Positions 34,998-39,041 of a stretch of DNA of 64,000 nucleotides are shown piece after piece. Source of the DNA: Pseudomonas silesiensis (lineage in GTDB: Bacteria > Pseudomonadota > Gammaproteobacteria > Pseudomonadales > Pseudomonadaceae). The first letter of the stretch is position 1. Every line of letters starts with the position of its first letter. The position numbers and the translations under genes were made by a program. The notes beneath the pieces are model-generated. The model made no database searches and was not told the origin of the DNA. It was given only the letters and a program-made list of their open reading frames with translations. The DNA lies in NCBI RefSeq assembly GCF_001661075.1, contig NZ_CP014870.1, forward strand, positions 3,554,501 to 3,618,500, in the 5' to 3' direction.

Positions 34998-35474
34998 GTA
35001 GTTCTCCAGTCGCGCAGGTTCCTGAGTCAACCCTATCTCAATTCACCAAACGCGCCACCCTGGCATTTCAATCGCTGGTTGCAGGCACTCCGTTTATCGG
35101 GTGGCGGGCTGTTGCCCATGCTGGGTCATTCACGGTGGAAATTTTCCGGGGACGATTGTTCGGCCGGCTGGCCTTCCCTACAAAAAACACATTAAATCAA
35201 TGACTTATTTATAAAAATACACGACTGAAGAATGAAGCGAATACTCCTACAGATGTAGGTCGCATTAGCTGACAGCGTTTTCCCTGTGAGCTGATTAAAG
35301 TCGCCTACCTGTAATTTGTGACAGGTTCCAAGGCGGATTAATCGCGCTATAAGGAGAACGTGCCTACAGCCTTATTCAGGTGGCTGAAGGACGGCCGCGC
35401 GAACCATCCCTTTTTGAAGTAGGAAGATTCTGCCGCGCCCACGCCGTCAATGATGATGAATGGGAGATTCAGTT
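34998..35474. other. 477-bp gene-free regulatory region
   Basis: Between a divergent aminotransferase gene and the LasR-like HTH gene. It holds the palindrome CCTACA-GA-TGTAGG (35246-35259), a lux-box-like 20-mer (35307-35326), AT-rich DNA at about 35180-35240 and an AAGGAG at 35351 followed at poor spacing by a GTG that would give only a 20-residue peptide. No convincing gene. Confidence 0.6.
35307..35326 (+). promoter_or_regulatory. Lux-box-like site upstream of the LasR-like HTH gene
   Basis: ACCTGTAATTTGTGACAGGT has 6-bp inverted arms ACCTGT/ACAGGT and the CT-N12-AG spacing of las/rhl and lux boxes. It ends 148 bp before the HTH gene. Recognition by that protein or by another LuxR-type receptor is inferred. 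Confidence 0.55.
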
Positions 35475-35759
35475 ATGTACCGTTCCACGACCGCCTCAGT
35501 CCAAGCATCGCCCGCCCAGGTCAGTTTCCAGCCACAGGAGTGCAAGCAACCCCGCGCGATCAAGCTCACTGCCAGGGAAAAGGAAGTCTTGCAATGGAGC
35601 GCCATTGGCAAGTCGTCCTGGGAGATCGCCCAGATTGTCGAGTGCACCGAGGCCGGTGTGAATTACCACTTTTGTAACATTCGCCGAAAATTCGGCGTGA
35701 GATCGCGCTGGATCGCTATGGTCATGGCGCTGGAACAAGGTTTGATTCAAACGCCTTGA
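35475..35759 (+). CDS. DNA-binding-domain-only LuxR/LasR-like regulator
   Basis: A 94-residue protein consisting of a short tail and one GerE/LuxR HTH (about 30-90). The HTH is strikingly like the C-terminus of quorum-sensing receptors such as Las[27 protein letters not shown] and NIRRKFGV match almost position by position. The autoinducer-binding domain is absent; upstream DNA shows no remnant of it. GGGAG eight bases before the ATG sets the start. A lux-box-like palindrome lies upstream, so autoregulation or cross-talk with quorum sensing is plausible. An RcsB-like regulator follows 51 bp later on the same strand. Confidence 0.82.
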
Positions 35760-35810
35760 ACCGGTTCCTCCGCGGCGGTCAGCCTGAGAATGACCCTGTT
35801 GAGGTACTGC

Positions 35811-36539
35811 ATGAATCTGCAACACAGCCAACGGCTTGACCCCTCCCGCGCCAATGCCTGTGACGATACGCCGGTATCGCACAGGCCTCCTTCGAACAAC
35901 GTGCTGCGCATTATCCTTGCCGACGATCACCCCGTGGTTTTGTTGGGTGCCGAAATGGCCCTCGGCGACTCGTTCTCGATCGTTGCCCAGGCGCAGGACG
36001 CCGATGAGTTGATCCACCATTTGCAGTGCACCCCCTGTGATCTGTTGATCAGTGATTACTCGATGCCCTATGGGCATTTTCCCGATGGCCTGGCGTTGAT
36101 GGGTTACCTCAGGCGGCACTTCAGCCACCTGCCTCTGATCGTGATGACCATGTTGCGCAATCCTTCACTGCTGCAGGCATTGCTCAACCATGGCGTAAAC
36201 GCGCTGTTTGACAAACGCAGCCCTTTGCGAGAATTGAGACAGGCCGTGCACAGCGTCACTAAAGGACGCCGCTACCTGTGCCCGACGTTTGCGGGGATTC
36301 TGGATGCCCGGGCCTTGCCCTCCTCCGGCACGTGCACGCCATTGGCCAGCCTTTCCCAAAGGGAACTGGAAGTGGTGCGGCTGTTCGTCCAGGGCCTGTC
36401 CGGCCGGCAGATCGCCGCCCAGCTCAACCGCAGCGAAAAAACCATCAGCCGACAAAAACGCACCGCCATGGACAAGTTGGGACTTGGCCATGACGGTGGG
36501 TTGGTGGAGTTTGCGAGGGTAAGCGGGTTGAAATTTTAG
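35811..36539 (+). CDS. RcsB-like response regulator
   Basis: A 242-residue two-domain regulator: receiver (about 31-155) with D38/D39, phospho-acceptor D82 in LLISDYSMPYG, and K131 region FDKRSP, then a LuxR-type HTH (about 175-238; LSQRELEVVRLFVQGLSGRQIAAQLNRSEKTISRQK). The phrases GHFPDGLALMGYLRRHF and KTISRQKRTAMDKLG closely parallel E. coli RcsB. GAGG six bases before MNLQHSQRL favours this start over one seven codons earlier. No RcsC/RcsD-type kinase is nearby, so it is an orphan here. Confidence 0.83.
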   Translation: MNLQHSQRLDPSRANACDDTPVSHRPPSNNVLRIILADDHPVVLLGAEMALGDSFSIVAQAQDADELIHHLQCTPCDLLISDYSMPYGHFPDGLALMGYLRRHFSHLPLIVMTMLRNPSLLQALLNHGVNALFDKRSPLRELRQAVHSVTKGRRYLCPTFAGILDARALPSSGTCTPLASLSQRELEVVRLFVQGLSGRQIAAQLNRSEKTISRQKRTAMDKLGLGHDGGLVEFARVSGLKF

Positions 36540-36878
36540 GTGCCTAGCCTTTCATTGAAACTGACCCTCCCCAAAACGATCAAAGAAAAGCTTGCACCCT
36601 GTAAGCACCCGGGCATGGCTTACTTCACAAAACAGCAAAAACGGCGCTACCGTGAATAGCTTCAAAGCACGCGAAAGCGGGTGCAACTTGAACAATTGAA
36701 CAGTGGGCATAAAGGCACCTTTGACGAGCGAAGGAAGAAAGCGGGGCAGGCTATAGGACCAGGTGTCACTCGGATGTAGGACTTATCCGAAGTACTCGTC
36801 CTACACGTCAGTGCAGCCCATAGGAAACGTGCGCCGTTGCGACCGCGCTTCCTATGGCGTTACTGCGTCACCCCATGT
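36540..36878. other. 339-bp gap between convergent genes, with inverted repeats
   Basis: No gene seen. It holds TGTAGGAC-N15-GTCCTACA (36775-36805) and CCATAGGAA-N22-TTCCTATGG (36818-36857), both able to form hairpins, but neither is followed by a T-run. They may end the two convergent transcripts or mark an uncharacterised RNA or repeat. Confidence 0.5.
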
Positions 36879-38873
36879 TCAAGGGTTGGGTGGTGGTGGA
36901 ACGTTGCAGGTGCCTTCGCCCACAAACATGCCCACCTCAGTATTGGTAGGCACTGATGAAGCGGGTTTTCCCGTAATTGCGTAAGTCACTTCGCCTTTGC
37001 CTATCGGCGCTGACTTCGTATAGGTGGGAAGGATGTGATCAACGTAGGGTTCAATGAGCCAGACAATGCCGTTTTCAGCCTGTTCTTTGGATATATTGGT
37101 GAACGTTGCTGATTTCCTCGCGGAGGGTACCTCCACCGGATTGTCAAAGTCCGTGTAGGCTTTCCACGTCACGGTGACTTCATCGCCTTCGTTCAAGTGC
37201 TTGCTCGGAGGAATTCTGTATTCGACTCCAAATTTTGTAGCCGTTGAATCCCAGCGCAAAGAGTTGCACCACAAAATCCCTGCTGGATTGGTCCACAATG
37301 GTTCGGCATCCGGCAATTTCAAAATCAAAAATTCGATCTTCACGGGAGTACGGTCCTTGGGCTCCTCCGGGTTTTCGTGGGCCGCGTTTGTCAGCTCATA
37401 CCATACCGGCATTGTTGAGCTGGGACCGGCGTCCCGGATGATGTCCCAGTCGTCCAGTAGACTGATTTCAATAAAATTACCCACGGTGTCTTTCGCTACA
37501 TCAATCTCATAAGGAACGCCGATAGGTGTTCCATTCCACATGACCTGATAGGTGTCGCGGTCTACCAGCGGGTCAACCAATTCTATTCTGGCTACAACTT
37601 CCTGGTCTTCATCCGAATCGATCAACTCATCAGGCTTGGCTGATTCGCCCGTGATCGTCACTTTCTTCAGGCCCGGGTTGCCAGGCTCGGGGTCTGGCAG
37701 CGGATTGACCGGCCCCGGGGCGGACAGGTTGCATTTGACGGTTTCGATATCCGATGGAAACGGTTCCACGCCGCGAAATACCTTGTAAGCCACTTCCGTC
37801 TCCACCACCCCTACCGTGTCACTCCCATACTCTTTCCAGATGGTGGCCCAGGGTACGGGGATGTTGATGCCGCCGGATGGATTAGCGCCAACAGGTGTTG
37901 GAGACTCTAGCTGTTCTACGCCCCAGCGCACCACGATTTGGTCGGTAGATTTGCCGTTGGTAATGTGGGGAATATTAACCATCACGCCGCCATCGACGAT
38001 ATCCGAGCGAAGCAGCTCACCGCCGGTGCCGTCCGTCACCTTGGGTGTATCCAGTAATGGGACGGGCCATGGGCCGAGCGCCACTGACATGAGCTCGTAT
38101 CTGGAGAGAATTGCATTACCGGCCTTGTCAACCAGGATGTAACCACCGCAACGCAGACCATCGCCCGTTTCTATTATTTTCGCTTTCGGGATCCTTACCG
38201 TTTGACCGGGTGACACAGGGATTGGCCCCTCTATCACATCCATGTCTTCCGGCTTTTCCGGCAACTTGTCCTTCATCCAGCCGTAGTACATTTGAACGTC
38301 GGGTTTATCTCCGTCCCACGTAGGAATTGTGGCTTCAAGATAATCGTTTACGCCGAAGGATGTATCGACGATAGGAGGCTTGACCGTAAACACCATAGGT
38401 TTTGGATTTATTCCCAGGTTGGGAGGAATTTTGTCGATATAGATGGGGACTCTATTGGACCAATCTTTTGCAGTAAGCTGATTTTCATGCTCGTATCTGA
38501 GCTCGAAAGCGCCTTCGTTTTCAGCGTCCAGCAAGAATTCTTTCGGGATGATGAAATTCAGCGGTACCCAGACAGGGTTAGCGCGACCTGCATAGGGATG
38601 TTCTTGAAGCAGGGTCCATTCATTACTGCCCGCACGGGCTACCTGCAACCTGAAATATTCAGTTCTTGCAGGGTTGGTGGGAAGACTTCCGCCCCATGTT
38701 GCTATCGTTGTTTTTTGATCTGTATTGAGCGTTGCCCGAAGGATCAATCCCAGGGGATCATCCTTTATTACAAAAGCAGAAACGTCCGGGTCCTGGACCA
38801 CCAGTGGCGCCGCCCCGCCTGATGCGAATTCGTCTGACGCAAGTTTCTGCTCTTTTTTATCTGAACCTGCCAT
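36879..38873 (-). CDS. Large beta-sandwich repeat protein of unknown function
   Basis: A 664-residue protein I do not recognise by name. It has no signal peptide or membrane helix. Repeated units of roughly 100-130 residues read as Ig-like beta sandwiches, each with a (D/Q)xxxVxW strand (DQIVVRWG, DTYQVMWNGTPIG, DEVTVTWKAYTD) and Pro-rich joints (PGPVNPLPDPEPGNPG). The tail is proline-rich (CNVPPPPNP). GGAG nine bases upstream sets the start at MAGSDKKEQK; two earlier ATGs lack a site. Codon use is visibly more AT-rich than in neighbours, suggesting transfer. A lux-box-like 20-mer lies 148 bp upstream. Confidence 0.72.
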   Translation of the reverse strand: MAGSDKKEQKLASDEFASGGAAPLVVQDPDVSAFVIKDDPLGLILRATLNTDQKTTIATWGGSLPTNPARTEYFRLQVARAGSNEWTLLQEHPYAGRANPVWVPLNFIIPKEFLLDAENEGAFELRYEHENQLTAKDWSNRVPIYIDKIPPNLGINPKPMVFTVKPPIVDTSFGVNDYLEATIPTWDGDKPDVQMYYGWMKDKLPEKPEDMDVIEGPIPVSPGQTVRIPKAKIIETGDGLRCGGYILVDKAGNAILSRYELMSVALGPWPVPLLDTPKVTDGTGGELLRSDIVDGGVMVNIPHITNGKSTDQIVVRWGVEQLESPTPVGANPSGGINIPVPWATIWKEYGSDTVGVVETEVAYKVFRGVEPFPSDIETVKCNLSAPGPVNPLPDPEPGNPGLKKVTITGESAKPDELIDSDEDQEVVARIELVDPLVDRDTYQVMWNGTPIGVPYEIDVAKDTVGNFIEISLLDDWDIIRDAGPSSTMPVWYELTNAAHENPEEPKDRTPVKIEFLILKLPDAEPLWTNPAGILWCNSLRWDSTATKFGVEYRIPPSKHLNEGDEVTVTWKAYTDFDNPVEVPSARKSATFTNISKEQAENGIVWLIEPYVDHILPTYTKSAPIGKGEVTYAITGKPASSVPTNTEVGMFVGEGTCNVPPPPNP

Positions 38874-39021
38874 GTTGTCGCTCTCCATATTCACCATCAG
38901 GCGCCCTGGACGTTCCATGGCGCTTCTGCGAGAAAAGCAGACCGAATATTGCGGGCACTACCCAAACGCTTCCCGTCGTTCTGCGCGTGGGAGCAGTAAA
39001 GCGTTTTTTATGGAACTGCGT

Positions 39022-39041
39022 AACTGTCAAAGTTGACAGGT
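39022..39041 (-). promoter_or_regulatory. Lux-box-like site upstream of the 664-residue protein gene
   Basis: On the minus strand ACCTGTCAACTTTGACAGTT, with inner perfect arms CTGTCAA/TTGACAG and CT-N12-AG spacing. It matches the site at 35307 at 15 of 20 positions in gene orientation and lies the same 148 bp from its start codon. Confidence 0.5.

Follow-up and report, generated by a model that had tools for sequence, protein, structure and literature searches.

Introduction

QscR, LasR and RhlR of Pseudomonas aeruginosa work with luxI-type genes, and GerE of Bacillus is a stand-alone GerE-domain regulator that consists of the DNA-binding domain (DBD) only. In the LuxR class-II position, the lux box lies near -42.5, in place of the -35 element. 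The present study concerns a 64,000-nucleotide stretch of the genome of Pseudomonas silesiensis (contig NZ_CP014870.1, positions 3,554,501 to 3,618,500; the whole stretch is referred to as the window) and two lux-type boxes in it, one before the gene for a 94-amino-acid (aa) DBD-only LuxR-type protein and the other before the gene for a 664-aa protein.

LuxR solos of subgroup A, including PpoR and Ppu16R, are defined by an fpr-rlmG gene context and are described, in the available text of a LuxR-solo survey, as the most widespread solo group among P. fluorescens species, with an unknown molecular mechanism (PMC8546723). According to the same text, Ppu16R has no promoter found to depend on it and no demonstrated direct target, and the proteins surveyed all had both domains, so that DBD-only LuxR proteins fell outside. 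A microarray list of 62 genes was given for PpoR of P. putida, and the term 'lux box' is absent from the available portion of that article (PMC2703642). The available parts of these two sources report no direct target of subgroup-A solos.

No report of the present box or regulon was found in the open-access literature searched, and a search with the half-site returned none. LuxR solos and lux boxes as such are familiar; what appears new against the literature searched is the prediction of an operator and a set of targets for subgroup A, and likewise for a second, mtnC-linked group of solos, with a DBD-only LuxR inside. The prediction of a box and a target list differs from the studies on Ppu16R and PpoR, as far as their available text goes. 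With an operator, a promoter layout and a list of targets predicted, the subgroup-A question can be tested directly, and the target list directs attention to genes other than the solo neighbors examined before.

We give a probability of about 0.62 to the reading that both boxes are predicted class-II operators in a solo-driven regulon, with a subgroup-A solo as the main reader and the 94-aa protein as a second tier. The boxes, their conservation, the promoter geometry, the co-occurrence with solos and the target classes were computed, and the binder, the sign of regulation, the ligand and the second-tier role are predicted from them.

Results and Discussion

Two lux-type boxes in the window

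The following features of the window are referred to below.

35307..35326, + strand: lux-type box 1, ACCTGTAATTTGTGACAGGT, before the 94-aa gene; subtype ending in CAGGT, one mismatch to the core
35348..35353, + strand: putative -10 hexamer TATAAG, starting 39 base pairs (bp) downstream of the first C in the core of box 1 (orthologue alignment and spacing in the genus)
35360..35474, + strand: probable 5' leader of the 94-aa gene, its start placed from the putative -10 hexamer (orthologue alignment)
35475..35759, + strand: 94-aa DBD-only LuxR-type (GerE) protein (open reading frame (ORF) call, Pfam and protein clusters)
36879..38873, - strand: 664-aa protein without a Pfam match, in the largest protein cluster of the sampled box targets (Pfam and clustering)
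38995..39000, - strand: putative -10 hexamer TTTACT, occupying index 39-44 relative to box 2, four of six bases as in TATAAT (window sequence)
39022..39041, - strand: lux-type box 2, ACCTGTCAACTTTGACAGTT, before the 664-aa gene; exact copy of the core

An earlier sequence-only reading had placed both 20-mers 148 bp before a gene, with 15 of 20 bases identical and the common form CT-N12-AG. All of this was confirmed on the window sequence: the distance from box to start codon (35475 and 38873) was 148 bp in both cases, and both 20-bp palindromes had the form of a lux box. The lasB OP1 site and the Vibrio fischeri lux box resemble ACCTGTCA-N4-TGACAGGT. When the window was scanned with ACCTGTN6TGACAGNT, boxes 1 and 2 were the only two places within two mismatches (four strand-wise matches); the same scan of the shuffled window gave a mean of 0.77 matches, and four were reached in one of 100 shuffles.

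The core CTGTCA-N4-TGACAG was reached through a pattern search with mismatches, in which the same pattern reversed served as the control. The genome of the window (G000, 6.82 Mb; other G numbers denote compared genomes, and L numbers loci) contained 13 exact copies against none of the control (uniform expectation, 0.41), and 26 against 4 with at most one mismatch, the box of the 94-aa gene being a one-mismatch copy. An initial, looser 20-mer pattern with up to three mismatches was only mildly enriched in G000 (217 against 175, forward). At least one exact core was present in 139 of 199 Pseudomonas genomes (maximum, 35; sum, 1285), and in 30 of 143 genomes from other genera of the same order, never with more than three copies. 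The genome-wide frequency of the core was above random, the opposite of what had been named as refuting the sequence-only reading. The two 20-mers in the window are not chance occurrences and, being also conserved before orthologues (box 2 less widely), look like the genuine lux-type boxes that the sequence-only reading took them for.

Promoter geometry

For the geometry, 93 distinct exact sites out of the 1285 were fetched, 71 of which could be given an orientation from the closest gene start, at a distance of at most 250 bp. A gene start lay at most 400 bp away from 74 of the 93 sites (median, 84 bp). Counting from the first C of the core, 13 of the 71 oriented sites had TANNNT at index 39 and 5 had it at index 40 (mean per position, 0.64), against two and one sites, respectively, on the opposite side of the box; T was found at index 44 in 66% of the oriented sites. 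Because of this recurrent -10-like hexamer, the center of the box falls ~43 bp before the expected start. Box and hexamer would together represent a LuxR class-II promoter, with the start itself predicted. The hexamers at index 39-44 in the window (TATAAG and TTTACT) were both imperfect.

That the palindromes are repeats, terminators or chance occurrences instead of operators is hardly credible. Long hairpins were seen by eye elsewhere (L078, L094, L095, L098 and L112), and this would favor such an origin; the window sites, on the other hand, lie 148 bp before genes, are conserved and have promoter-like spacing. A chance or terminator origin of the window boxes was rejected on copy number, promoter-like spacing and orthologue conservation. 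PhoB, LexA, GacA and other Pseudomonas operators were considered and set aside for their spacing or symmetry.

At L094, L095, L098 and L112, the core was embedded in longer perfect or near-perfect palindromes with arms of ~16 bases, which are perhaps terminators or another element.

Conservation of the locus

The ten best matches to the 94-aa protein (E<=2e-28) were aligned over 350 bp, and box 1 was the most conserved 20-bp stretch among these closest orthologues; G219 had two mismatches to the core. TATAA was found at a fixed spacing from the box in 10/10. A box within one mismatch preceded the short gene in 13 of 16 compared loci. In G059, the order aminotransferase, 94-aa gene, response regulator and 664-aa gene was kept with both boxes present. 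An exact core also preceded 664-aa homologues that were 58, 31 and 27% identical in G059, G002 and G109, respectively; no match to the response regulator was found at the G109 locus. The expectation that the 20-mers are conserved upstream of orthologues held for box 1 in the ten closest ones, and for box 2 in close and some distant relatives, with others lacking it (see below).

The 5' leader of the 94-aa gene (~115 nucleotides, 35360-35474) was well conserved in the ten orthologues and is possibly a regulatory leader.

Full-length LuxR solos as the probable readers

Box-rich genomes that were inspected for potential readers had full-length LuxR proteins, and the same holds for G000:

G000:C1:693977-694687, - strand: full-length LuxR solo of subgroup A (PpoR-like), with autoinducer and GerE domains, between fpr and rlmG

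This chromosomal protein of 244 aa contains PF03472 and PF00196 (Pfam), and its neighbors, named by eye from translations, are fpr (ferredoxin-NADP reductase) and rlmG (23S rRNA methyltransferase). The flanks of this first solo family were viewed in six genomes and in L013 and L026; the fpr and rlmG neighbors were kept in L175, L013 and L026 (tblastn). Both domains and both neighbors agree with the subgroup-A solos PpoR and Ppu16R as described in the available text (PMC8546723, PMC2703642).

The sequence-only reading had noted that the window has no luxI gene, and a PF00765 search extended this to the whole of G000, in which none was found; 40 of the 199 genus genomes have one. The closest solved relatives of the solo family alignment were QscR, LasR and RhlR (best match in PDB, 3szt, 7e-51, by its name presumably QscR; RhlR and LasR were also close), from which the present system differs in that no luxI was found in G000.

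The first solo family was searched for with a profile of nine full-length LuxR proteins, and co-occurrence was counted in all 199 genus genomes drawn, with kinship ignored. The cut-offs for co-occurrence (E<=1e-80 and at least three boxes) were set after the data had been seen; no scores fell between 1e-76 and 1e-81. A subgroup-A-like solo was present in 92 genomes, and 92/92 had at least three boxes (median, 10). Among the 107 genomes without it, 18 had at least three boxes, and 13 of these 18 carried a second solo family, first met in G018 and G020. This second family occurred in 19 of the 199 genomes, with at least three boxes in 13/19, and was never found together with the first one in the same genome at the cut-offs used, nor was it found in G000. 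Overall, at least three boxes were present in 105 of the 111 genomes with either family, against 5 of the 88 with neither; two of these five (G199 and G109) have partial solo matches.

The flanks of the second family were viewed by eye in three genomes, and the neighbors were mtnC (enolase-phosphatase) and an ankyrin-type gene at 3/3 loci. Enolase-phosphatase and ankyrin-type flanks are listed for both PsaR1 and subgroup F in the available text; the likeness of the mtnC-linked family to them is one of gene neighbors, and its link to the box one of co-occurrence.

Points that weigh against the proposed regulon

Several observations count against a solo-driven regulon of class-II operators, and these are gathered here. 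With regard to the sites themselves, 8 of the 93 fetched exact sites were inside long ORFs, and some sites were terminator-like by eye. The strict TANNNT at index 39 or 40 was present in just 18 of the 71 oriented sites, neither window site among them, and several of the other G000 sites had no clear -10 element at index 39-44. At 18 loci with relatives of the 664-aa protein, an upstream box with at most one mismatch was found in 6 (including the window's own) and with at most two mismatches in 2 more; the rest, some of them in box-rich genomes, had none.

With regard to the reader, 6 of the 19 genomes with the second solo had zero to two boxes, and 37 genomes with a distant solo match (E 1e-50 to 1e-80) averaged 1.3 boxes; G007, whose distant match is at the same fpr-rlmG locus, had zero. 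Among solo genomes, those with a DBD-only-type match had fewer boxes (9.8 vs 13.0, p=0.016), and the box before DBD-only genes ended in CAGGT (G after CAG) in 24/24 boxed cases. In the available text, the P. putida PpoR microarray gives genes other than the boxed ones (PMC2703642).

The co-occurrence of solos and boxes was also uncorrected for phylogeny, and as the solos probably follow particular clades, the pattern would also be matched by any factor that those clades share. The same lack of correction would favor an unrelated transcription factor, co-inherited with the LuxR solos, as the reader of the box. We regard this as improbable: a CT-N12-AG palindrome near -43 is of the LuxR type, and two solos at separate loci (fpr-rlmG and mtnC), which did not occur together in any of the 199 genomes at the cut-offs used, go with the same box.

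The 94-aa protein and its place in the regulon

The 94-aa protein matched GerE (PF00196) at residues 31-85 (E=5e-17; 61.7 bits vs a cut-off of 23.5), and the autoinducer-binding domain PF03472 was not found by Pfam, with just 30 residues N-terminal of the helix-turn-helix (HTH) match. Of the two domains of a LuxR-type receptor, it therefore has the GerE HTH only. The frame with an HTH and without an autoinducer domain, as first read from the letters, was borne out by the ORF call and Pfam. A protein search gave 229 clusters at E<=1e-12; among the 120 listed, nearly all were 91-106 aa and most exactly 94 aa, indicating a genuine short protein, and the organisms named for these 120 were Pseudomonas or metagenomes. 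Like Bacillus GerE, the protein is a DNA-binding domain only, and it differs in that its gene, which has its own box and an adjoining RcsB-like response regulator, is tied to a lux-box regulon.

A DBD-only LuxR paralogue was found in the same genome (G000:C1:5146163-5146354, - strand; L223), 52% identical over the HTH; no box was found upstream of it.

Among 72 matches to the 94-aa protein at E<=1e-13, 50 passed a length rule, 17 were excluded, and 5 whose N-terminus was over-extended or had not been parsed (L126, L210, L227, L231 and L232) were added by hand, giving 55 DBD-only genes. A box with at most two mismatches preceded 24 of these, with TA downstream of it at index 39 in all but one, where TA was at index 40. 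Boxed genes were concentrated in solo genomes: 20/25, against 4/30 in genomes without a solo (Fisher p=6e-7, samples not independent), so that the short gene looks like a solo target. Since G after CAG was found in only 21% of the 71 general sites (T in 70%), the CAGGT subtype fits a separate or second reader, perhaps the 94-aa protein itself, which may bind box 1.

The sequence-only reading had made the 94-aa protein a ligand-independent reader of both sites, and this was not supported as it stood: box number tracks the full-length solos instead. Genomes with a match at E<=1e-13 (n=62; some of these matches are full-length LuxR proteins) had a mean of 4.1 boxes vs 7.5 in those without (n=137), and at E<=1e-25 the means were 6.6 (n=13) vs 6.4 (n=186). 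Its presence without a rise in box number led us to reject the protein as the sole reader in general. No match at E<=1e-13 was found in the box-rich genomes G010 (19 boxes), G019 (22), G033 (22), G058 (22) and G065 (35). Against this stand the box before 24 of 55 DBD-only genes, four of them among the 30 without either solo (G109 with a partial match), the distinct subtype of these boxes, and the constitutive activation of which a truncated LuxR is capable in V. fischeri. Taken together, it is quite unlikely that the 94-aa protein alone reads both boxes constitutively, without a ligand, and regulates itself. Because box number tracks the solos and boxed DBD-only genes are found in 20/25 vs 4/30 cases, the circuit probably forms one arm of a wider regulon that is driven by a receptor.

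The solo-driven regulon that we prefer may operate as follows. Boxes 1 and 2 would be LuxR class-II operators, centered ~-43 from the predicted start and replacing the -35 element, in a regulon that comprises roughly twelve sites or more in G000. The primary reader would most likely be the full-length solo at G000:C1:693977-694687 (- strand), and as no luxI was found, it would answer an external or non-AHL (N-acyl homoserine lactone) ligand, or work without one. The active solo would induce a set of genes encoding surface proteins and others, the 664-aa protein among them, together with the DBD-only 94-aa LuxR. A second-tier role is proposed for the latter because the short gene is an apparent solo target and has a distinct box subtype; lacking a ligand domain, it may act at the same kind of box in feedback or in ligand-free prolongation of the response, possibly together with the RcsB-like regulator encoded downstream.

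A wider version is offered tentatively, and we consider it somewhat unlikely as a whole: in many Pseudomonas without an AHL synthase, an orphan receptor (either of two interchangeable solos) may sense a foreign or plant signal and switch on 664-type, RHS-, Tc- and autotransporter-type proteins as well as a ligand-free DBD-only LuxR on the same boxes, so that a passing signal would be made lasting (or self-limited).

The RcsB-like response regulator

35790..36539, + strand: RcsB-like response regulator (REC and GerE domains) of 249 aa, possibly in an operon with the 94-aa gene (Pfam, NCBIfam and PDB search)

RcsB was the best-scoring model for this protein (146.2 bits, vs <=69 for the other models listed), which also had a PDB sequence match at 3e-35. 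As the score was below the cut-off of 235 of the NCBIfam equivalog NF008098, RcsB proper was rejected and the protein is named RcsB-like only. The gene adjoins the short gene in 6 of the 16 loci compared.

These data bear on another possibility, in which the 94-aa protein is an accessory partner of the adjoining regulator, as RcsA or BglJ, and the lux box merely sets its expression. The best match to RcsB (146 bits vs <=69; PDB, 3e-35) and the adjacent pair in 6/16 loci, including G219 and G006, where the other window neighbors searched for were not found at that position, are consistent with such a partnership. The remaining 10/16 loci had no match to the 249-aa regulator (the G127 contig breaks off ~390 bp downstream of where the short-gene match begins), and 94-aa GerE-only proteins are far shorter than RcsB partners; we therefore find this explanation unlikely.

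The 664-aa protein and other predicted targets

The sequence-only reading had taken the 664-aa protein for a large beta-sandwich. For this putative fold, Pfam gave no match to the protein at E<=1; among its relatives, the sole match was that of one member, to an unrelated family at E=0.007, and PDB contained no sequence match. Its start codon is supported by Met1, invariant in 35 aligned sequences including the window's own. When records of predicted target proteins (n=103; paired boxes of one gene account for some of them) were clustered by single linkage, the largest cluster was the 664-type family with 13 records (6 of the 13 listed). A 767-aa homologue is labeled RHS-type by its source; Pfam gave no match to it at 1e-5.

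Further boxed genes in G000 encode an autotransporter, a DUF5122 repeat protein, an fn3-repeat protein, a GH3 family enzyme and a type III polyketide synthase; other sites are followed by genes for which no clear match was obtained, and L078 is terminator-like. Some boxed genes in relatives are of the SpvB/TcdB, VRP1 or RHS type.

Beside the DBD-only gene, 11 of 16 loci (L245-L260) showed RHS/YD-repeat frames on inspection by eye, at the position where the window has the 664-aa gene, and RHS repeats were confirmed by Pfam in both neighbor loci scanned (G149 and G181). In the stretches fetched for the 16 loci, no box with at most one mismatch preceded these RHS/YD neighbors, which are therefore linked to the short gene by position only.

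One relative, P0067, shared 85% identity with 19% of the 664-aa protein (judged by eye to be the N-terminal part) and continued with an unrelated tail, suggesting swapped C-terminal parts. The box of the type III polyketide synthase gene lies ~160 bp upstream (L261; G000:C1:145500-149500), which hints at a small-molecule product within the regulon. A gene for a 211-aa response regulator has a one-mismatch box 122 bp upstream (L271; G000:C1:4540000-4545000, box at 2412) and is possibly another regulator in the predicted regulon.

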